From NCBI RefSeq assembly GCF_017876675.1, contig NZ_JAGIOI010000001.1, positions 4,154,001 through 4,218,000 on the forward strand: a DNA stretch of 64,000 nucleotides, read 5' to 3'. The translations under genes were made by a program, and so were the position numbers. Shown here one piece after another: positions 2,031 through 40,760 of the stretch (within the stretch, counting starts at the first letter, position 1; each line of letters opens with the position of its first letter). The notes beneath the pieces are model-generated. The model was not told where the DNA came from. It was given only the letters and a program-made list of their open reading frames with translations, and ran no database searches. This DNA is from Arthrobacter stackebrandtii. Lineage in GTDB: Bacteria; Actinomycetota; Actinomycetes; Actinomycetales; Micrococcaceae.

Positions 2031-2136
2031 AGTAATCAGTTTTCCTTGTCACTTGTTCACCGGTGTTGCGCCGTAAGGCCTTCTTGGGCCAGCTGCCCAC
2101 GCAACGAGTCAAACCCCGTTGGAGGGTGCCCGGATA

Positions 2137-2213
2137 GGGGCCAAAGTCACGACTGTGCTGCAATGCGAGACGGACCATCTCGGAATGTCATACACCAGGA
2201 GGCCAAAGGACCT
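2137..2213. promoter_or_regulatory. Candidate DosR/OsdR-type operator pair between ppsA and adh
   Basis: Two imperfect palindromes lie in the divergent promoter region. GGGGCCAAAGTCAC at 2137-2150 matches 11 of 14 positions of the DosR core GGGACTWWAGTCCC. AGGCCAAAGGACCT at 2200-2213 is a related GGNCC-type dyad. That response regulators of this family control PEP/pyruvate dikinase and alcohol dehydrogenase genes in other actinobacteria is family knowledge. Assignment here rests only on motif likeness and gene context, and no such regulator gene lies in the window. Confidence 0.35.
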
Positions 2214-2307
2214 TGTGCCCTTGCGGGAGGCGCGCGCCGAGGTCACACTCAAAAGGAGCGCTGCTCGGCAACCGGGCCGGTGCCAGAATCCGGCGAAGGA
2301 GGCAGCC

Positions 2308-3309
2308 ATGCGTGCATGGTGGATAGAGGAACCGGGTCCGATGGCCTCGCATCCCCTTGTCTGGGGCGAACGGCCCGACCCGATACCCGGGCCCGGCGAA
2401 TTGCTACTGCGTGTATTGAGTTGCGGGGTCTGCCGCACCGACCTGCACCTTGCCGAGGGCGACCTTGCCCCCCGGCACCTGCACATGATCCCGGGCCACG
2501 AGGTGGTGGGAGTTGTAATCGGGATGGGTCCGGACTGCAACGAGGTTCAGATCGGCGACAGGGTTGGCGTGCCATGGCTGGGCCAGACGTGTGGTGCATG
2601 CCGGTTCTGCCTGCTTGGGGAAGAAAACCTGTGCCTCTCCCCCACCTTCACGGGCTGGGACCGTGACGGAGGCTATGCTGAACTCGTCACGGTGGTTGAG
2701 GCCTTCACCTACAGGATCCCTAAGGTGTTCAGCAACGTAGAGGCTGCGCCCCTTCTGTGCTCGGGCATCATCGGCTACAGGGCGCTCCAACGGGCTGCGC
2801 TGCCTGCCGGCGGGCGTCTGGGAATTTACGGTTTCGGCGGATCGGCCCACATTACGGCCCAGATCGCGTTGCATCAGGGTGCCTCCATCTATGTCATGAC
2901 ACGCTCGGCCGAAGCCCGCGCACTCGCTGTGGCACTGGGGGCAGTGTTCGTGGGTGATGCCATGGACGTTCCTCCCGAGCCTGTGGATTCTGCCATCCTC
3001 TTTGCGCCTGTTGGAGACCTGGTGCCGGTTGCCCTGCGGGCACTGGACCGTGGCGGAACCCTTGCCGTGGCTGGCATCCACCTCTCTGACATCCCTTCGC
3101 TGCACTACGAAACGGAGCTGTTCCAGGAACGGGCACTGGTCAGCGTCACGGCCAACACCCGAACGGATGGCCAGGAACTCTTGAGCATCGCCGCGCAGAT
3201 CCCCATCCAACCGACCACAACGACCTATCCTTTTTCAGCCGCCGACCAGGCCCTGGCCGACCTGGCCGGGGACTGTGTCACAGGTGCCGCCGCTCTCCTC
3301 ATGGACTAG
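2308..3309 (+). CDS. Zinc-dependent alcohol dehydrogenase family protein
   Basis: A 333-residue medium-chain dehydrogenase/reductase expected to oxidise an alcohol or reduce an aldehyde with NAD(P). Catalytic-zinc ligands are in CGVCRTDLHLAEGD and GHEVVG. The structural-zinc lobe CGACRFCLLGEENLC carries four cysteines. The nucleotide-binding region includes GIYGFGGSAHIT. The ATG at 2308 was chosen because GAAGGAGG sits 6 nt upstream and the protein then begins at the normal family position; the frame is open further upstream. Its TAG stop overlaps the stop of the convergent LigD-type gene in a CTAG tetranucleotide. It is divergent from ppsA with DosR-like sites between. The substrate cannot be told from sequence. 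Confidence 0.9.
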   Translation: MRAWWIEEPGPMASHPLVWGERPDPIPGPGELLLRVLSCGVCRTDLHLAEGDLAPRHLHMIPGHEVVGVVIGMGPDCNEVQIGDRVGVPWLGQTCGACRFCLLGEENLCLSPTFTGWDRDGGYAELVTVVEAFTYRIPKVFSNVEAAPLLCSGIIGYRALQRAALPAGGRLGIYGFGGSAHITAQIALHQGASIYVMTRSAEARALAVALGAVFVGDAMDVPPEPVDSAILFAPVGDLVPVALRALDRGGTLAVAGIHLSDIPSLHYETELFQERALVSVTANTRTDGQELLSIAAQIPIQPTTTTYPFSAADQALADLAGDCVTGAAALLMD

Positions 3310-4205
3310 CACGCCGACGGCGGAGGAATCACGGGAACCAGGCCGGCGTCGATTCTTTCGATGACCTCCCGGTACCCCAGTTGGGCGAGCCCGGGCGTGG
3401 CAATTTCGGACCACTGGCGCGGTGCCGCCGCGGTGGGCGTCGGCCGGCCTCGCAGCGAATAGGGCACAATGGTGGTCTTGGCCTGCCAGTTCTGGCTCCA
3501 GTCAATGAAGATCTTCCTGCGCCGCACGTCCTTGCCCATCCGGCTGACGACTAACTCGGGGTGGTCGTGTTCCATGGAAAGGGCCACCTCATGGGCCAGG
3601 GCAGCAATGTCCGCCGAAGACCGTCGGCCGTCCAGGCCGGCATACACGTGGATTCCCTTGCTGCCGCTGGTCACGGGCAGCGACGGCAGTCCCAGCCGGT
3701 CCAGTGATCCCTTGGCAATGAGCGCCACGGCTGCGCACTCAGCCAGCCCGGCACCTTCCCCGGGGTCAAGGTCAAGGACCAGCCGGTCCGGGTTTCCGGG
3801 CTTGCCGGCGTCAGAGAACTGCCACTGCGGAACGTGGATCTCCAAGGCCGATATTTGGGCGAGCCAGGCCAAGGTGCGGGCGTCGTTGACCAGCGGATAC
3901 ACGGCATCGTGGTCTTTGTGGTGCAACCGCTGCCTTATCACCCAGTCCGGTGTGCCTGTGTCGAGGTTCTTTTGGAAGAAACTATTCCCGGGGGCAGCGG
4001 CTGTTCCCACGCCGTCCACCCAACGTTTCCGGGTGGCGGGACGGTTCCTGGCCCACTGGATCAGCACGGGCGCAACATGCAGGTAGTAGCTGGCGACGTC
4101 GGTCTTTGTGGTGCCAGTTTCAGGGTAAAGGATCTTCGCCGGATGGCTTAGCCGGACTGTCCCGTCCCCTGCATCCATCCGTCGCCGTGCGCTTGCGTCA
4201 TTCAT
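3306..4205 (-). CDS. LigD-type DNA polymerase (primase-polymerase domain protein)
   Basis: A 299-residue stand-alone member of the polymerase domain family of bacterial DNA ligase D, the AEP-type enzyme that fills or extends ends during Ku-dependent non-homologous end joining. Visible motifs are LVLDLDPGEG (metal-binding Asp pair), VTSGSKGIHVYAGL, and RRKIFIDWSQN near the C-terminus. The ATG at 4205 has GGAGGG 5 nt upstream. The frame is open further upstream but that extension is low-complexity. No ku or ATP-dependent ligase gene lies in the window, so partners must be encoded elsewhere if the pathway is complete. It is convergent with the alcohol dehydrogenase, the two stop codons overlapping by 3 bp. 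Confidence 0.88.
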   Translation of the reverse strand: MNDASARRRMDAGDGTVRLSHPAKILYPETGTTKTDVASYYLHVAPVLIQWARNRPATRKRWVDGVGTAAAPGNSFFQKNLDTGTPDWVIRQRLHHKDHDAVYPLVNDARTLAWLAQISALEIHVPQWQFSDAGKPGNPDRLVLDLDPGEGAGLAECAAVALIAKGSLDRLGLPSLPVTSGSKGIHVYAGLDGRRSSADIAALAHEVALSMEHDHPELVVSRMGKDVRRRKIFIDWSQNWQAKTTIVPYSLRGRPTPTAAAPRQWSEIATPGLAQLGYREVIERIDAGLVPVIPPPSAC

Positions 4206-4711
4206 GCAGACCCTCCGTGCAGCTTGGGGTGCGGTCCGGGGCCTCGGCGGCGCTTTGGCCATCAGCGGCCGGAACACCGGAGCGCTGGCCGGGCCGGGTG
4301 TGCCCATGAGCCGGAAACAGTGAAGAATGCCTGTTTGCCATGGCACCGGCATCGGGATGTCATCCCGGCCCAGTCTAGGCCCTTCCCCTGCACCACGCAC
4401 CACTTGGCACTGCCCGTCCTAGCAGCAGTTGTTCCGGTCCGGCGAAACCACTCAAGACTCAGCGGTGAATCCGCGCGGCAGGCACATACGCGGGCCGTGG
4501 TGGATCACGGGGACTTCAGTTCCGGCGCAGAGCCCGATTCCCTTCTCCTGCTCAGGTTCCGGAGGTCCGTGGAACGGCTCTGCCACGTTTGAGATTCTCT
4601 GGCGGCTCATGTCCCGGCAGGGGACGTTTGGCACTAGTGGAACAGGCGGCCCTCAACAAGACTGCAGTTAACCACCTGCCACCGCACTGCCGCCAAAAAG
4701 GGGCCACTTAC
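4206..4711. other. 506-bp intergenic region between divergent ligD-type and flavodoxin genes
   Basis: No credible gene is seen here. The notable element is a DosR-like dyad at 4510-4523, annotated separately. Short frames in this stretch lack ribosome-binding sites and family-like sequence. Confidence 0.6.
4510..4523. promoter_or_regulatory. Candidate DosR/OsdR-type box upstream of flavodoxin gene
   Basis: GGGACTTCAGTTCC matches the DosR core GGGACTWWAGTCCC at 12 of 14 positions and is flanked by G on the left and GG on the right. It lies 188 bp upstream of the flavodoxin start and about 300 bp upstream of the LigD-type gene. It is the best of the DosR-like sites in this cluster. Function is inferred from motif and neighbours only. 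Confidence 0.4.
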
Positions 4712-5251
4712 ATGAGCATTGCCGTCATCTACGAATCAATGTTTGGCAATACGAGGAAGATTGCCCTCGCCATCGCTGAGGGACTTGCACCATTCGGGAT
4801 GGTGTCCACCGCGAATGTCAACGACCCGCGCGCCAGGAAAGCCGCCCATTCAGCCAACTTGCTTGTGCTCGGCGGTCCAACCCACGTGCACGGCATGAGC
4901 CGTCCATCCTCGCGTCAGGAAGCACTGACATGGTCCAGTGATCCCCGGAAGGACCTGGAGCTTGAACCCTTGGCACCAGGAACAGGCGTCCGTGAGTGGC
5001 TCCGGGACACCGAACTCATTCCTCCCCTGAGTGCGGCCTTTGACACACGGGTCGACATCGCCCACCTGCTTTCAGGTGCGGCCTGCGGCCACATCCAGCA
5101 TGCCTTGGCGAAGCGGGGCTCTCGTGAGGTCATTGCACCTGAAAGTTTGCTAGTCACCAAAGACAACATCCTAGGCGTAGGCGAACTGGCCCGTGCCCGG
5201 GACTGGGGCACCAGCGTGGGCCGGGCCATGGAGCGGTTCCGCGACCGCTGA
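4712..5251 (+). CDS. Flavodoxin-like protein
   Basis: A 179-residue protein with the flavodoxin-type phosphate-binding loop near its N-terminus (SMFGNTRKIA, residues about 9-18) and the LVLGGPTHVHGMSRP loop that contacts flavin. Expected to bind FMN and act in electron transfer or as a small reductase. The ATG at 4712 was chosen because the fold begins at once (MSIAVIYESMFGNT); the 41 residues encoded upstream in frame look non-coding. The C-terminal half is more divergent than classical flavodoxins. It sits among PEP synthase, alcohol dehydrogenase and DUF4389 genes, consistent with a low-oxygen or stress role (inference). Confidence 0.82.
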   Translation: MSIAVIYESMFGNTRKIALAIAEGLAPFGMVSTANVNDPRARKAAHSANLLVLGGPTHVHGMSRPSSRQEALTWSSDPRKDLELEPLAPGTGVREWLRDTELIPPLSAAFDTRVDIAHLLSGAACGHIQHALAKRGSREVIAPESLLVTKDNILGVGELARARDWGTSVGRAMERFRDR

Positions 5252-5671
5252 GGCGCCGCACACTGCAGGCTTTCCGCGAATGACCTCCGCGCCAATGCCA
5301 TCGTACTGAACAGACCTGGCCTTGTGTGATGCCGTGCTCAAGTGGCTGGCAAACGGCACCACAACCGGGCCCAACGCAAGAAACTGTCCCCTTGCGAGCC
5401 AAGGAGGCTGGCCTCGGCACGTCCCGCTGGCTGCCTTGCCCTGGCCAGGATCTTCCCGTGAGTGGCTTGGTGCGTCAGAAACTAGTGGGATCCCTTGTTT
5501 GCAACCTGATGGGCGTACATGCCAGCAAGGTTTCCCTTCCCGTGCCAGAGACCATTGTCCTGGCTTGGGGTTGGGTTGCCTGGATCGGGTCCAAAACCAC
5601 CAGGCCTTTCTCCTCTACTGCCGGTGCGCCGTACAGGACAAAGTGGAGAGCAACAGTCGGGGAGCGATGAG
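5252..5671. other. 420-bp intergenic region upstream of the DUF4389 gene
   Basis: No gene or clear terminator is recognised. An AACTGTCCCC segment near 5390 is only half of a DosR-like site and is not called. Confidence 0.5.
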
Positions 5672-6643
5672 ATGACAAGCACTGCAGAGATTGACAACGG
5701 CACACCGGATCCGGGAGGTGCCCGTGGTGGAGCCGCGGGTGGCGTCGTGGCGCTTGCGCTGGGAATTCTTCTGGCCTTGCTCGGTGCGACCGGGATCGCC
5801 GGTGGCATAGTTGCCTCCACGGTATCTGCCGGGCAGGGACCGGACGGATATCTCAGTTCCCCGGCACGGGAATTCACCACCACGTCCTACGCACTCACCT
5901 CTCCGCCAGCCAGGATTGGCACTGAGAAGGTTCCCTTTGACTTTGGCAGCTTCCGGCTTAAAGCCACACCCTCCCAGGCCGGAGGGCAGGTTTTCGTTGG
6001 CATCGGACCCAAGACTGACGTTGACCGCTACCTCAGCGGCGTCAACATCAGCGAAATCGCCGGCGTCGAGTCTTCTCCTTTCCGGGTGCAGTACCGGGAT
6101 GTTCCCGGAACTGCTGCCGCAACGCCTCCGGGTGACCAGGGCTTTTGGACCGAATCTTCCTCCGGGCCGGGGACCCAGCAGCTCACCGTGGACCTGCGCA
6201 GCGGCAACTGGGTTGCGGTTGTCATGAATTCCGACGCCGGGGCCGGCGTCACGGTGAATCTGCAGGCAGCGGTCCACTCCGCCTGGCTGGACACCGTCCC
6301 ACCAACCCTGTGGATTGGCGGGCTGGTGCTGCTGGTCCTTGGTGGCGGCCTGGTGGTGCTGGGTGCGATTCTCCTTGGCAGGCAGGCGGCCCCTTCGATG
6401 CGGCCAGGTGGCGATGCCGTCCCCGCCACGACCGGGGTCTACCCTGCAAGGCTCTCCGGGAAGCTTGACCTACAGCTGTCCCGAGGACTGTGGCTGGTCA
6501 AATGGCTCCTGGCCGTGCCGCACTTCTTCATCCTCTTTTTCCTGTGGGTCGCCGTCGCCATCACCACCATCACCACCATCATCGCCGGCTTCGCCGTCCT
6601 CTTCACCGGTCGGTACCCCCGTTACCTTTTTAGTAGCCCCTAA
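5672..6643 (+). pseudogene. DUF4389 membrane protein gene truncated by IS110 insertion
   Basis: The frame encodes 323 residues, of which about the first 316 are native. There is an N-terminal transmembrane helix (residues about 20-50), an extracytoplasmic domain, a second helix near residues 215-240, then the start of the DUF4389 domain (LWLVKWLLAVPHF, two hydrophobic segments, ending GRYPR). In this family the domain normally continues past GRYPRG with further helices. Here the frame runs into insertion-sequence DNA at about 6621-6624 and stops at 6641-6643. The missing C-terminus is not found beyond the insertion elements, so it was lost rather than displaced within this window. The ATG at 5672 has GGGAG upstream. 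Function unknown; the product is probably non-functional. Confidence 0.75.
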
Positions 6644-6879
6644 ACGAGTAAGAATTGGGGTTGTTGGTCTGTCGGTCCCGGCATGATTAAGTCCCCCAGT
6701 CGTTGATGATCCGGGGGGTGTTGTCACCGGGGTCCGATAGGCGCCAGGGGATCGCTAATGGGGACCGGACCAGCACAAGGAACCGTCGTGTAGGTCAGCC
6801 GTAACGTGGATGCCGAGCCTTGCCGCCGTAGGACAAGCCAACGAATGTTTCACAGGACTAGATTTCTGGGAGGTTTACG
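6640..6879 (+). ncRNA. Candidate IS110 bridge RNA locus (left-end non-coding region)
   Basis: IS110-group elements encode a structured bridge RNA in the non-coding end upstream of the transposase; this is family knowledge. The region here can fold into at least two hairpins. CCCCC 6693-6697 pairs with GGGGG 6713-6717, enclosing a 15-nt loop. GGTCC 6731-6735 pairs with GGACC 6762-6766, enclosing a 26-nt loop. Loop sizes are compatible with guide loops, but no covariation or guide-target match could be computed. Confidence 0.4.
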
Positions 6880-8079
6880 TTGATCAACAACCATGACGAA
6901 GTCGATATCTTCATCGGTATTGACGTCGGAAAGAGCAATCACCACGCGGTCGCTATTGACCGGGCAGGCAAGAAAATCCTGGACCGGGCGCTGCCTCAGG
7001 ACGAGGCGAAGATCCGGGCGATCATCCAGGCCGTGGCTGGGAAAGGCACCGTGCTGCTCGTCGTTGACCAGCCCTCGACCATCGGGGCGCTGCCGGTGGC
7101 CGTGGCCCGTGCCGAGGGCATCATGGTCGGCTACATTCCCGGCTTGGCCATGCGTCGCATCGCGGACCTGCACCCGGGAGAGGCGAAGACCGACGCCCGG
7201 GATGCTGCCATTATTGCCGAGGCAGCCAGGTCGTTGCCGCACACGCTGCGTTCGATCGCCCTGGCTGATGAGCAGGCCGCGGAACTGTCCATGCTCTGTG
7301 GTTTCGATGATGATCTGGCCAAGCAGGCCACCGCGACCTCGAACCGGATCCGGGGCCTGCTCACCCAGATCCACCCGGCCCTGGAACGGGTTATCGGCGG
7401 CCATCTGGACCACCCGGCCATGGCCGAGTTGCTGATCAAATACCCCTCCCCGGAGAAGATCCATAACGCCGGGCAAACCCGGGTCAGGACGCTGTTGACC
7501 AAGTACGCTCCGCGGGGCGGGAAACCCTGGTCTGCGGACATCTTCGCCGCCCTGAGCGAGCAGACAGTGACCGTGCCCGGGAGCGGTTCAGCCGGGATCG
7601 TGCTGGCCCAACTCGCCGCGATGCTCAAGCAGCTGCGCACTGCCCGCAATGAACTGCTGACACAGATCGAAGCTCTGGTGGAGGCCCACCCTCTTCACGA
7701 GGTCCTGACCTCCATGCCGGCCGTCGGTGTCAGGACCGCAGCACGCATCATCACCGAAGTCGCCGGCAAAGAATTCCAATCCTCCGGGCACCTGGCCTCC
7801 TACGCCGGCCTCGCCCCGGTCACCTGGCGCTCCGGGACCTCGATCCGCGGCGACCACCCCTCAAGGAAAGGCAACAAAACCCTGAAACGGGCGTTCTTCC
7901 TCTCCGCGTTCGCCGCGCTCAAAGACCCGCTCTCACGCGCCTACTACGACCGGAAACGCGCCGAGGGCAAACGGCACAACCAGGCCCTGATCGCCCTCGC
8001 CAGACGCCGCTGCGACGTCCTGTTCGCGATGCTCCGCGACGGCACCCTCTACGACGCCCCAACACCCAAAGCCACATAA
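6880..8079 (+). CDS. IS110 family transposase
   Basis: A 399-residue transposase. The N-terminal RuvC-like DEDD domain begins FIGIDVGKSNHHAVAI (Asp15) and has TDARDAAIIAEAAR near residues 105-120. The C-terminal transposase_20 domain has AVGVRTAARIITEVAG and YAGLAPVTWRSGTS, with the serine characteristic of the family. Start is TTG at 6880, with GGGAGG 6 nt upstream; no ATG fits better. The frame is intact, so the element may be active. It lies between the truncated DUF4389 gene and IS1249 copy 1. Confidence 0.93.
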   Translation: MINNHDEVDIFIGIDVGKSNHHAVAIDRAGKKILDRALPQDEAKIRAIIQAVAGKGTVLLVVDQPSTIGALPVAVARAEGIMVGYIPGLAMRRIADLHPGEAKTDARDAAIIAEAARSLPHTLRSIALADEQAAELSMLCGFDDDLAKQATATSNRIRGLLTQIHPALERVIGGHLDHPAMAELLIKYPSPEKIHNAGQTRVRTLLTKYAPRGGKPWSADIFAALSEQTVTVPGSGSAGIVLAQLAAMLKQLRTARNELLTQIEALVEAHPLHEVLTSMPAVGVRTAARIITEVAGKEFQSSGHLASYAGLAPVTWRSGTSIRGDHPSRKGNKTLKRAFFLSAFAALKDPLSRAYYDRKRAEGKRHNQALIALARRRCDVLFAMLRDGTLYDAPTPKAT

Positions 8080-8222
8080 CCACCAACGACTACCCGCCGG
8101 ACGAATCACCCCGCCGGCCACCCCAGCCTGCCCAAAAACACGCTCCCAAACTCTTTCGAAAAAGTGGGTTAGCGGCCAGAATGTGTGTATGAAAAGTGGC
8201 TTTTGGCCAGTAATCATATGGG

Positions 8223-9413
8223 ATGCAGGGCCCTGTACATGCTTTGAAAGCATGTACGGTGACAGTTCCCAAGAATCACCCCAGGTGTGGTGTATGTACT
8301 AAGAAGCTCGTAAAGAATGGCAAGACCAGCGCGGGAAGAACTAGGTGGCGGTGCAAGTCCTGTGGTGCTTCCAGCACCCAGTCACGTGTCGATGTCAGCA
8401 AGAAAGCAGAGTTCACAGCGTTCCTGTCCTGGATCACCGGCAAGGACCGTCAGGAAGCCCATGCAGGCTCCGCACGCACCTTTAGGCGTCAGAGTGCCTG
8501 GTGCTGGACGGTGTCCCCTACAGCCGTCGTGAGCGGCGAAATACACCCCCAGATCATGCTTGACGGAACGTACTTCAACGACTGGTGCGTGCTGGTCGCC
8601 TACACCGGCAACCACGTCATCGCCTGGCAGTGGTGCGACAGAGAAAAGAATGCGTCCTGGTCTGCCCTGCTGCAACAAATCCCGGCACCTGCGGTCGCGA
8701 TCGTTGACGGGCACAAAGGCCTGGAAAGTGCGCTGCGCGAGCACTGGCCAGAGACGAAGGTGCAACGGTGTCTTTTTCATATCCAGCAGAACATTCGAAC
8801 ACACCTCACGATGCGCCCAAACCTCGATGCCGGCAAGGAATTACTGGCACTAGCCAAGGCCCTGACACCGATCCAAGACCTTGACCAAGCCGCTGTCTGG
8901 GCCGGGGAATTCGCTTCCTGGGAAGCACGCTGGGAGTCCTTCTTGAAGACCCGAACCTACGCGAAGAAGAACGGCGAGAGGCCCTCCCATATCGGCACGA
9001 ACCAGCAATGGTGGTTTACACATCTACGCCTGCGTCGGGCCCGCGGAACACTGGCCACGGTATTGAAAAATGGGCACCTGTTCACTTGGCTCACCGCCGC
9101 CACCAACGAGCACAAGATCGACCGCACCACCAGCCCCTTGGAAGGCGGAATCAATGCCGGTCTCAAGCACCTTCTACGCGATCACCGTGGTCTCACCGAC
9201 GACCACGCCAAACGAGCCGTTGACTGGTACCTCTACCTCCACAGCGAGTCTCCGAAAGACCCCTGGACGTTCGTGAAACCCAGCCACTGGCAGCCCCAAA
9301 GAAAACAAAGCACAACCATCGAAGAGCCCATCGGGCCAGCCCTCTACGACACAGCCTTCAGCCCCGAAGACGGGAACGGAATCCAACAAGGATGGGGCGG
9401 AAGAAGCCGATGA
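8223..9413 (+). CDS. IS1249 family transposase (IS256-like), copy 1
   Basis: A 396-residue transposase. An N-terminal zinc-ribbon-like segment (CGVCTKKLVKNG and CKSCGAS) is followed by the DDE core, with MLDGTYFNDW, IVDGHKG and an HIQQNIRTHL segment. The C-terminal SPLEGGINAGLKHLLRDHRG carries the Glu. The ATG at 8223 is used. A GTG at 8259, just after a perfect hairpin (8235-8257), is an alternative that better matches the family N-terminus. The frame is intact. It differs from copy 2 by Ser versus Ile and Thr versus Lys. Confidence 0.93.
   Translation: MQGPVHALKACTVTVPKNHPRCGVCTKKLVKNGKTSAGRTRWRCKSCGASSTQSRVDVSKKAEFTAFLSWITGKDRQEAHAGSARTFRRQSAWCWTVSPTAVVSGEIHPQIMLDGTYFNDWCVLVAYTGNHVIAWQWCDREKNASWSALLQQIPAPAVAIVDGHKGLESALREHWPETKVQRCLFHIQQNIRTHLTMRPNLDAGKELLALAKALTPIQDLDQAAVWAGEFASWEARWESFLKTRTYAKKNGERPSHIGTNQQWWFTHLRLRRARGTLATVLKNGHLFTWLTAATNEHKIDRTTSPLEGGINAGLKHLLRDHRGLTDDHAKRAVDWYLYLHSESPKDPWTFVKPSHWQPQRKQSTTIEEPIGPALYDTAFSPEDGNGIQQGWGGRSR
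8235..8257 (+). other. Perfect hairpin at the 5' end of the IS1249 transposase gene
   Basis: GTACATGC, 7-nt loop, GCATGTAC. It is present identically in copy 2 (39397-39419). It could mask translation initiation on read-through transcripts, as hairpins do in some other IS elements (inference). Confidence 0.5.
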
Positions 9414-9520
9414 CACCCCCGGGCCATACACACATTCTGGCCGCTAACCCTGCGAAGTCACGGTGCAGGCGCTTAAACACGAAAACCCCCTGTCACCAGG
9501 AGGTTCCCGCACGAAAAAAG

Positions 9521-9601
9521 TACCCGAGGTGGGACTCGAACCCACACACCTTTCGATACTGCATTTTGAGTGCAGCGCGTCTACCATTCCGCCACTCGGG
9601 C
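9521..9601 (-). tRNA. tRNA-Leu (anticodon CAA)
   Basis: Acceptor arms GCCCGAG and CTCGGGT, a GGTTCGAGTCC T-arm, and an anticodon loop CTCAAAA between CTGCA and TGCAG, giving CAA, which reads UUG. There is a variable arm, as expected for class II. CCA is not encoded. A T-rich stretch follows the 3' end. It lies 71 bp from IS1249 copy 1. Confidence 0.95.
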
Positions 9602-39327: not shown

Positions 39328-40612
39328 GGGTTAGCGGCCAGAATGTGTGTATGAAAAGTGGCTTTTGGCCAGTAATCATATGGGATGCAGGGCCCTGTAC
39401 ATGCTTTGAAAGCATGTACGGTGACAGTTCCCAAGAATCACCCCAGGTGTGGTGTATGTACTAAGAAGCTCGTAAAGAATGGCAAGACCAGCGCGGGAAG
39501 AACTAGGTGGCGGTGCAAGTCCTGTGGTGCTTCCATCACCCAGTCACGTGTCGATGTCAGCAAGAAAGCAGAGTTCACAGCGTTCCTGTCCTGGATCACC
39601 GGCAAGGACCGTCAGGAAGCCCATGCAGGCTCCGCACGCACCTTTAGGCGTCAGAGTGCCTGGTGCTGGACGGTGTCCCCTACAGCCGTCGTGAGCGGCG
39701 AAATACACCCCCAGATCATGCTTGACGGAACGTACTTCAACGACTGGTGCGTGCTGGTCGCCTACACCGGCAACCACGTCATCGCCTGGCAGTGGTGCGA
39801 CAGAGAAAAGAATGCGTCCTGGTCTGCCCTGCTGCAACAAATCCCGGCACCTGCGGTCGCGATCGTTGACGGGCACAAAGGCCTGGAAAGTGCGCTGCGC
39901 GAGCACTGGCCAGAGACGAAGGTGCAACGGTGTCTTTTTCATATCCAGCAGAACATTCGAACACACCTCACGATGCGCCCAAACCTCGATGCCGGCAAGG
40001 AATTACTGGCACTAGCCAAGGCCCTGACACCGATCCAAGACCTTGACCAAGCCGCTGTCTGGGCCGGGGAATTCGCTTCCTGGGAAGCACGCTGGGAGTC
40101 CTTCTTGAAGACCCGAACCTACGCGAAGAAGAACGGCGAGAGGCCCTCCCATATCGGCACGAACCAGCAATGGTGGTTTACACATCTACGCCTGCGTCGG
40201 GCCCGCGGAACACTGGCCACGGTATTGAAAAATGGGCACCTGTTCACTTGGCTCACCGCCGCCACCAACGAGCACAAGATCGACCGCACCACCAGCCCCT
40301 TGGAAGGCGGAATCAATGCCGGTCTCAAGCACCTTCTACGCGATCACCGTGGTCTCACCGACGACCACGCCAAACGAGCCGTTGACTGGTACCTCTACCT
40401 CCACAGCGAGTCTCCGAAAGACCCCTGGACGTTCGTGAAACCCAGCCACTGGCAGCCCCAAAGAAAACAAAGCAAAACCATCGAAGAGCCCATCGGGCCA
40501 GCCCTCTACGACACAGCCTTCAGCCCCGAAGACGGGAACGGAATCCAACAAGGATGGGGCGGAAGAAGCCGATGACACGCCCGGGCCATACACACATTCT
40601 GGCCGCTAACCC
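39328..40612 (+). mobile_element. IS1249-type element, copy 2, with 8-bp target duplication
   Basis: 1285 bp with perfect 26-bp inverted repeats (GGGTTAGCGG... and ...CCGCTAACCC). The target duplication CGCCACGG is at 39320-39327 and 40613-40620, marking a clean insertion into the tRNA array. It is nearly identical to copy 1 (8166-9450) and in the same orientation. Confidence 0.96.
39385..40575 (+). CDS. IS1249 family transposase (IS256-like), copy 2
   Basis: A 396-residue transposase with the zinc-ribbon-like N-terminus and DDE core described for copy 1. It differs by Ile for Ser in the CGASxTQ segment and Lys for Thr near the C-terminus (QSKTIEEP). The frame is intact. The ATG at 39385 is used; GTG at 39421 is an alternative. 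Confidence 0.93.
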   Translation: MQGPVHALKACTVTVPKNHPRCGVCTKKLVKNGKTSAGRTRWRCKSCGASITQSRVDVSKKAEFTAFLSWITGKDRQEAHAGSARTFRRQSAWCWTVSPTAVVSGEIHPQIMLDGTYFNDWCVLVAYTGNHVIAWQWCDREKNASWSALLQQIPAPAVAIVDGHKGLESALREHWPETKVQRCLFHIQQNIRTHLTMRPNLDAGKELLALAKALTPIQDLDQAAVWAGEFASWEARWESFLKTRTYAKKNGERPSHIGTNQQWWFTHLRLRRARGTLATVLKNGHLFTWLTAATNEHKIDRTTSPLEGGINAGLKHLLRDHRGLTDDHAKRAVDWYLYLHSESPKDPWTFVKPSHWQPQRKQSKTIEEPIGPALYDTAFSPEDGNGIQQGWGGRSR

Positions 40613-40673: not shown

Positions 40674-40687
40674 CGTTCCTTATTCCG

Positions 40688-40760
<73 letters not shown>

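Follow-up and report, generated by a model that had tools for sequence, protein, structure and literature searches.

What gave rise to the junction between an accessory gene cluster and the tRNA-Leu region in the chromosome of Arthrobacter stackebrandtii? The stretch analysed here (the window) comprises 64,000 nucleotides, positions 4154001-4218000 of a closed, single-contig genome of 4,427,938 bases that is 99.95% complete. Within it, a gene for a DUF4389 membrane protein is broken off by an insertion sequence (IS) of the IS110 family, which is followed directly by a copy of IS1249 (copy 1) and then by the transfer RNA (tRNA) gene tRNA-Leu(CAA) (Table 1). An earlier note on this DNA took the unequal 8-bp flanks of copy 1 as the mark of a probable genome rearrangement, in which the accessory cluster had been joined to the core block at tRNA-Leu through recombination between IS1249 copies or through an IS-linked deletion. 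We hold with good confidence a reading that combines (i) a preference of IS1249 for insertion beside stable-RNA genes, (ii) a deletion at copy 1, and (iii) a proposed recognition of the ends of stable-RNA units. For the window, a supposed rearrangement breakpoint would thereby become a predictable insertion followed by a deletion.

Insertion sites of IS1249-family elements

As shown by comparison of insertion sites across the family, IS1249-family elements have a preference for sites immediately downstream of stable-RNA genes (tRNA genes, and 5S ribosomal RNA (rRNA) genes at the ends of rRNA operons), and the right end of the element, where the transposase gene ends, faces the 3' end of the RNA gene. 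A minus-strand tRNA gene lies to the right of the element within 300 bp in 69 of 127 evaluable elements and in 37 of 58 genomes or record groups. As all 127 rows come from these 58, they are not independent of one another, and the 69 positives represent 68 genome-by-tRNA combinations. The distance between element and tRNA gene has a median of 84 bp with quartiles of 71 and 107 bp, and the tRNA genes cover 15 amino-acid types, most commonly Ser (11), Phe (9) and Pro (7). A plus-strand tRNA gene on the right was found in 0 of the 127 elements and a tRNA gene of either orientation on the left in four; three of these four are on the minus strand, all in tRNA clusters with a fitting right side, and one (L380) is on the plus strand. 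Where positives lie in tRNA clusters, 17 of 20 lie past the last tRNA gene. The pattern spans the divergence of the family: the positives are 36-100% identical to the copy 1 protein, and a tRNA gene is faced by 13 of the 17 elements below 40% identity and by 10 of the 14 above 60%.

Among the elements that were negative for tRNA, Rfam identified five more (L252, L254, L280, L389 and L390) whose right end is faced by a 5S rRNA gene at a distance of 123-313 bp, and six second copies are stacked behind a copy that keeps the rule (two at L240 and one each at L248, L254, L382 and L384). Including one copy of the A. stackebrandtii genome described below, 81 of the 127 elements fit (69 via tRNA, 12 via 5S rRNA or stacking). 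Against a strict rule stand the 44 elements without a nearby stable-RNA gene and the two in reversed orientation (L380 and L275), and we therefore regard the rule as a strong preference and not as absolute. In the two reversed cases the left end of the element faces the 3' end of a tRNA-Glu array (L380, genome G446) or of a 5S rRNA gene (L275, genome G609). The head-to-tail stacks of at least two copies behind one tRNA or 5S rRNA gene (L240, at G554:C1:1593571-1602637, L248, L382, L384 and L254) look as if one site had been used repeatedly.

The survey covers the genus, the bacterial family (395 genomes), the class (394 genomes), GTDB contigs and the extra copies in four multi-copy genomes. 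It comprises 143 rows, of which 16 are not evaluable because the 3' end of the transposase gene is missing or the right flank falls short of 300 bp. The protein search of the bacterial family returned 50 of 395 genomes at E 1e-30, and the search at class level returned few, 7 of 394 at E 1e-40. Five loci (L131, L132, L147, L151 and L157) were excluded as duplicates of fetched regions, and a single additional match in G554 was left out together with about a dozen matches that were partial or lay at contig ends. At L238 and L373 two neighbouring copies were merged into one row each (2536 and 2594 bp), which leaves two stacked copies uncounted. The right end was not found by motif in 48 of the 143 rows (35 of the 127 evaluable rows and 11 of the 69 positives), and the distance was then taken from the transposase end plus 40 bp.

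The A. stackebrandtii genome itself contains five full copies of IS1249 with 99-100% identity and one relic of 44-47 bp. All six are found on the downstream side of a tRNA or 5S rRNA gene and have the transposase 3' end toward the RNA 3' end. By tRNA detection, the right ends of four full copies face tRNA-Leu(CAA) at 69 bp, tRNA-Gly(GCC) at 74 bp, tRNA-Val(UAC) at 115 bp and tRNA-Met at 65 bp, and the relic lies opposite tRNA-Phe at 58 bp. The fifth full copy, at 1038090, has a 5S rRNA 3' end to its right at 176 bp once a 1447-bp insert is set aside. Copy 1 thus conforms to the family rule. The insert, an ISL3-like element (L392:5376-6822), sits exactly at the right end of the 1038090 copy and masks its link to the 5S rRNA gene. 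Perfect 8-bp duplications flank three of the five full copies (copy 2, 3400668 and 2803500) and are missing at copy 1 and 1038090. The earlier note was right that copy 2 has a clean duplication, CGCCACGG on both sides.

IS256 and IS110 elements served as controls. No tRNA gene lies within 500 bp of any of 30 IS256 loci or of any of 30 IS110 loci (Fisher p 5e-16 for the tRNA class against IS1249, the control loci being the best matches returned and not a random draw), and Rfam found neither tRNA nor rRNA near the control loci searched with it (30 IS256 loci, 10 of the 30 IS110 loci). Since the second IS110 copy of A. stackebrandtii sits in an rRNA spacer, proximity to rRNA is not unique to IS1249, but the oriented tRNA pattern is. 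These controls bear on the possibility that IS1249 inserts at random and that selection removes all copies except those that landed harmlessly in the spacers following tRNA genes. A spacer that follows a terminator may plausibly be a safe site; however, the control elements are exposed to the same selection and are absent from the vicinity of tRNA genes, the spacers of protein genes are far commoner than those of tRNA genes, and survival in safe spacers does not account for a near-constant orientation (69 tRNA genes on the right on the minus strand versus 0 on the plus strand). We consider such an origin of the pattern highly unlikely.

Transposase and target recognition

The IS1249 transposase belongs to family NF033544 (435.2 bits, cut-off 300) and falls below the cut-off for IS256 proper (NF033543, 50.7 bits, cut-off 150). 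In an alignment (A1) of 40 sequences the C183xxH186 motif is invariant and the Cys4 site and the DDE core are also conserved; we take D114, D162 and E307 to be the catalytic triad on the basis of the family pattern together with conservation. In an AlphaFold2 model (pLDDT 84) the protein has an IS256-type fold with the (C/D)xxH motif, and the closest solved structure is that of the IS256-family transposase ISCth4 (6xgx; E 2e-9, TM 0.43). This single frame fills the 1285-bp element, in which no TniQ/TnsD or guide-RNA module was found.

Target duplications of 6-8 bp flank 59 of 80 family elements with both ends found, and AAA or TTT occurs in 20 of 58 eight-bp duplications versus 11% expected at equal GC (guanine plus cytosine) content, in agreement with the preference of IS1249 for triple A/T targets given in the available part of PMC1590026. 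A terminator-like hairpin pointing at the element is present on the right of 35 of 69 positives. The association with RNA genes could accordingly reflect nothing but a local DNA preference, for A/T triplets or the U-tracts of terminators, in genomes of high GC content. We regard this as unlikely: only 13 of 58 negatives have such a hairpin on the right, tRNA and 5S rRNA genes dominate although the terminators of protein genes outnumber those of tRNA genes, and a local motif alone gives no fixed orientation relative to the gene.

We favour instead that terminating stable-RNA transcription complexes would be recognised, because the tRNA and 5S rRNA genes have no evident common sequence and the distances vary, and because positives in clusters lie mostly past the last tRNA gene, with an orientation that follows transcription. 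In this scheme the transposase alone would recognise something common to the ends of stable-RNA units, e.g. terminating RNA polymerase together with its factors, and not the tRNA sequence. Two observations argue against its simplest forms. Firstly, the distance between element and tRNA gene spans 26 to 239 bp, and a fixed distance from the terminator found no support in the 33 positives where a stem was detected (standard deviation 34 bp from the stem versus 33 bp); because the distance varies and measuring from the stem does not narrow the spread, no fixed-distance recogniser is visible. Secondly, a hairpin toward the element is detectable in just over half of the positives, which argues against a simple terminator model.

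Relation to other targeted elements

IS1249 as an element is already known. Searches of open-licence PMC papers returned no account of it targeting tRNA or rRNA genes, and its habit of homing to stable-RNA genes is provisionally regarded as unreported. The published IS1249/Tn5432 elements of corynebacteria and bifidobacteria are IS256-like and share with the elements studied here the NF033544 family, terminal inverted repeats, 8-bp duplications and enrichment of A/T triplets. For these elements the available part of PMC1590026 describes a preference for triple A/T only, and neither it nor the available part of PMC10383950 draws a link to tRNA or rRNA genes. The 0.2% auxotrophs recorded for Tn5432 in PMC1590026 are a low yield that would fit insertion outside coding genes.

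Several other systems resemble IS1249 in part. According to the accessible text of PMC3706591, the eukaryotic Dada elements likewise encode a DDE transposase distantly related to IS256 and target tRNA and small nuclear RNA genes; Dada, however, uses a fixed site inside the RNA gene, with one gene per family, whereas IS1249 inserts outside and downstream of many RNA genes. The ISAjo2 group of the IS1202 family in Acinetobacter, as far as the excerpts of PMC10132070 describe it, also consists of small one-transposase IS elements that take an oriented position by a defined site, and its authors suggest contact with a bound protein; the group differs in having a transposase of another family and in targeting pdif/dif sites at a fixed distance of ~5 bp. 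Tn7-like elements and CRISPR-associated transposons (CASTs) with tRNA attachment sites likewise insert beside diverse tRNA genes, in the portion of PMC11406308 that was available. They use TniQ/TnsD or guide RNAs together with several proteins, in contrast to the one protein of IS1249 in 1285 bp.

The retroelements Ty1 and Ty3 and the TRE elements of Dictyostelium gather around tRNA genes as safe havens, some of them at variable distance. They are retroelements, which use RNA polymerase III factors, and not bacterial DNA elements. We tentatively suggest that IS1249 transposases may be the first among bacterial IS elements to home by means of a single protein to positions downstream of stable-RNA units via contact with the released RNA, RNA polymerase or Nus factors in the terminating complex, with the orientation set by the direction of transcription, and that they may be a bacterial counterpart of tRNA-gene homing in yeast and Dictyostelium. 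How a transposase reads transcription units could be studied in a simple way with a one-protein element whose chromosomal target is safe, universal and used in one orientation; such an element might also be developed for directing insertions in actinobacteria while leaving genes intact. The preference could also shed light on the way in which the IS1249-based resistance transposon Tn5432 establishes itself in chromosomes.

Origin of the junction at tRNA-Leu

The DUF4389 frame breaks off at about 6616-6621, where IS110 starts. In relatives the gene is a single unbroken frame of 494-602 residues, which in full-length cases extends about 165-245 residues past the break point; a full-length relative matches PF14333 (DUF4389). 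A search of the A. stackebrandtii genome with the 191-residue C-terminal part of a relative returned nothing convincing (best E 0.02), so that the remainder is gone from the whole genome and not just from the region beyond the IS pair. The earlier note had placed the cut at about 6621, had found no C-terminal part beyond the IS pair and had proposed this search; both of its observations hold, the second of them genome-wide.

The IS110 element matches NF033542 (241 bits, cut-off 140), PF01548 (DEDD N-terminal) and PF02371 (Transposase_20). Its left non-coding end (6618-6879) is conserved in the copies of relatives, which share the left end CCCGTTACC. In IS110-family elements a bridge RNA in the non-coding end specifies target and donor. 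The copies of relatives extend ~39 bp past the position that matches GAAAAAGT and terminate in a right end such as ...CTTGACGAAAAACATAGGGACACCCC; since these ~39 bp are missing here, IS1249 copy 1 cuts IS110. To the right of copy 1 lies the spacer that normally follows tRNA-Leu(CAA); it includes a terminator-like hairpin and is shared with relatives. The 8-bp flanks of copy 1 are indeed unequal, as had been claimed, with GAAAAAGT on the left and TGCGAAGT on the right.

Table 1. Features at the junction and at IS1249 copy 2 (positions in the window)
Feature	Position	Strand	Remarks
DUF4389 membrane-protein gene, 5' part	5675..6619	+	interrupted by IS110; relatives 56-65% identical over the shared part
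IS110-family element	6618..8165	+	lacks the last ~39 bp of its right end; boundaries from alignment with relatives' copies
IS110 DEDD transposase gene	6880..8079	+	intact frame, 399 residues
Left flank of IS1249 copy 1	8158..8165	+	GAAAAAGT; within IS110 right end; the IS110 copy of G018 aligns up to 8165, then has its own right end
IS1249 copy 1	8166-9450	+	1285 bp; perfect 26-bp terminal inverted repeats at 8166-8191 and 9425-9450; NF033544
IS1249 transposase	8223..9413	+	396 residues; N-terminal Cys4 zinc site, presumed DDE triad (D114, D162, E307), CxxH (C183, H186)
Right flank of IS1249 copy 1	9451..9458	+	TGCGAAGT; tRNA-Leu side
Terminator-like hairpin and U-tract of tRNA-Leu	9482..9503	-	between tRNA and IS1249; read from sequence
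tRNA-Leu(CAA)	9520..9601	-	3' end 69 bp from right end of IS1249 copy 1
IS1249 copy 2	39328..40612	+	duplication CGCCACGG on both sides; right end 74 bp from tRNA-Gly(GCC) 3' end
tRNA-Gly(GCC)	40687..40760	-	RNA gene faced by IS1249 copy 2

Relatives provide a background against which this anatomy can be read. DUF4389 lies to the left of the same tRNA-Leu gene and in the same orientation in G002 (at 24.9 kb), G011 (118 kb), G014 (109 kb) and G001 (8.4 kb, decayed), and because order and orientation are kept in these four genomes, the order DUF4389 then tRNA-Leu is likely to be ancestral. G007, G008, G018 and G020 are uninformative on order, with DUF4389 on another contig than the tRNA-Leu match or with no long match. 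What is unusual in A. stackebrandtii would then be the loss of the stretch between DUF4389 and tRNA-Leu. The left side of tRNA-Leu is a variable integrase hotspot, with tyrosine integrase frames beside the tRNA gene in G013, G018, G004, G009, G015 and G017 (loci L030, L032 and L037-L040). In the window itself the list of open reading frames contains no integrase frame between 6.6 and 9.5 kb, such as an integrative element with tRNA-Leu as its attachment (att) site would have beside the tRNA 3' end. An IS1249-type element, 78-82% identical, occupies the same place at tRNA-Leu in G001, G022 and G019; in G022 its two arms, on two contigs, share the 8 bp TTGAAGCG, a clean duplication.

Judging from the sequences compared, the odd junction most likely arose when DNA was deleted between two mobile elements of ordinary kinds beside a tRNA gene. 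As the anatomy suggests, (i) IS110 would have inserted into the DUF4389 gene of an island to the left of tRNA-Leu, (ii) IS1249 would have inserted downstream of tRNA-Leu, and (iii) a later deletion, with endpoints exactly at the left end of IS1249 and inside the right end of IS110, would have taken ~39 bp of IS110, the 3' half of DUF4389 and the intervening DNA. A deletion that starts from the left end of IS1249 would leave copy 1 without a duplication. The unequal flanks of copy 1 are a local scar in the island beside tRNA-Leu, given that reciprocal flanks are missing, that the DUF4389 order is kept in relatives and that the locus is an integrase hotspot. Two points count against the deletion. 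The orientation of DUF4389 is opposite to that of tRNA-Leu in G004, an exception to the conserved order, and no relative with a whole IS110 in this DUF4389 gene was found, so that the state before the deletion is inferred.

Of the two routes offered in the earlier note, the IS-linked deletion fits best, and the joining of a foreign accessory cluster to the core block by recombination finds no support. Had two IS1249 copies recombined to bring the cluster to the tRNA-Leu block by inversion or translocation, the exchange should have left reciprocal flanks at surviving copies. The genome-wide search that had been proposed for other copies with flanks matching GAAAAAGT or TGCGAAGT found these sequences and their complements at none of the four other full copies or the relic. 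A second copy without a duplication, 1038090, does lend some colour to such an exchange; there, however, the missing duplication coincides with the ISL3-like element that abuts the right end, and a reciprocal exchange between copy 1 and 1038090 is ruled out because the flanks mismatch in every orientation. Given the missing reciprocal flanks, inversion or translocation between IS1249 copies was rejected, and with gene order and orientation kept in four relatives we consider it very improbable.

Two further candidates were tried and rejected. A flank seemingly shared by the copy at 2803500 and the right side of copy 1 proved to be a gapped match of two terminator regions. Relocation of the DUF4389-tRNA-Leu interval within the genome was addressed with a 19.5-kb query from G002, which, the tRNA-Leu block aside, gave only scattered matches of about 50-520 bp with 66-90% identity; the test is weak, as this interval was perhaps never present in A. 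stackebrandtii.

An assembly artefact is extremely improbable. Near-identical IS copies are classical points of misassembly, and the IS1249 copies of this genome qualify as such; however, the genome is one closed, nearly complete contig, the right side of copy 1 retains the same tRNA-Leu surroundings as in relatives, and on the left side copy 1 is fused to the right end of IS110, a combination not available from any other pair of copies.

For the favoured deletion two mechanisms are conceivable, and on the present sequence they are probably indistinguishable. The IS1249 transposase may have caused an adjacent deletion from the left end of the element. Alternatively, two direct IS1249 copies, one in the right end of IS110 and one at tRNA-Leu, may have undergone homologous recombination, which we regard as a serious possibility. 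Such recombination yields a hybrid element whose two flanks differ, single RNA genes with stacked direct copies do occur in the family (L240, L248, L254, L382 and L384), and with 44 of 127 elements away from RNA genes a copy inside IS110 is possible. However, this mechanism requires an extra, off-target copy of IS1249 in IS110, which was seen in no genome, whereas an adjacent deletion by the transposase requires just one copy.

The IS110 copies and the island beside tRNA-Leu

The second IS110 copy of A. stackebrandtii (1047685; L019, G000:C1:1046185-1050649) lies between two rRNA operons in a spacer with tandem repeats, and its right end is also missing; past the stop codon the left-flank sequence occurs again, as though the right end had given way to a tandem duplication. 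A complete right end is thus present in neither IS110 copy of this genome. In G011, short repeats of the tRNA-Leu terminator region occur to the left of tRNA-Leu (L086 and L087; near G011:C1 2910334, 2971411, 3026931 and 3032936) and look like what successive islands would leave behind on integrating at a single att site. The island genes to the left of the junction (window 2119-6619) code for a zinc alcohol dehydrogenase, a LigD-type primase-polymerase, a flavodoxin-like protein and the DUF4389 protein, and stretches similar to this part of the window are found to the left of tRNA-Leu in G001, G011 and G014.

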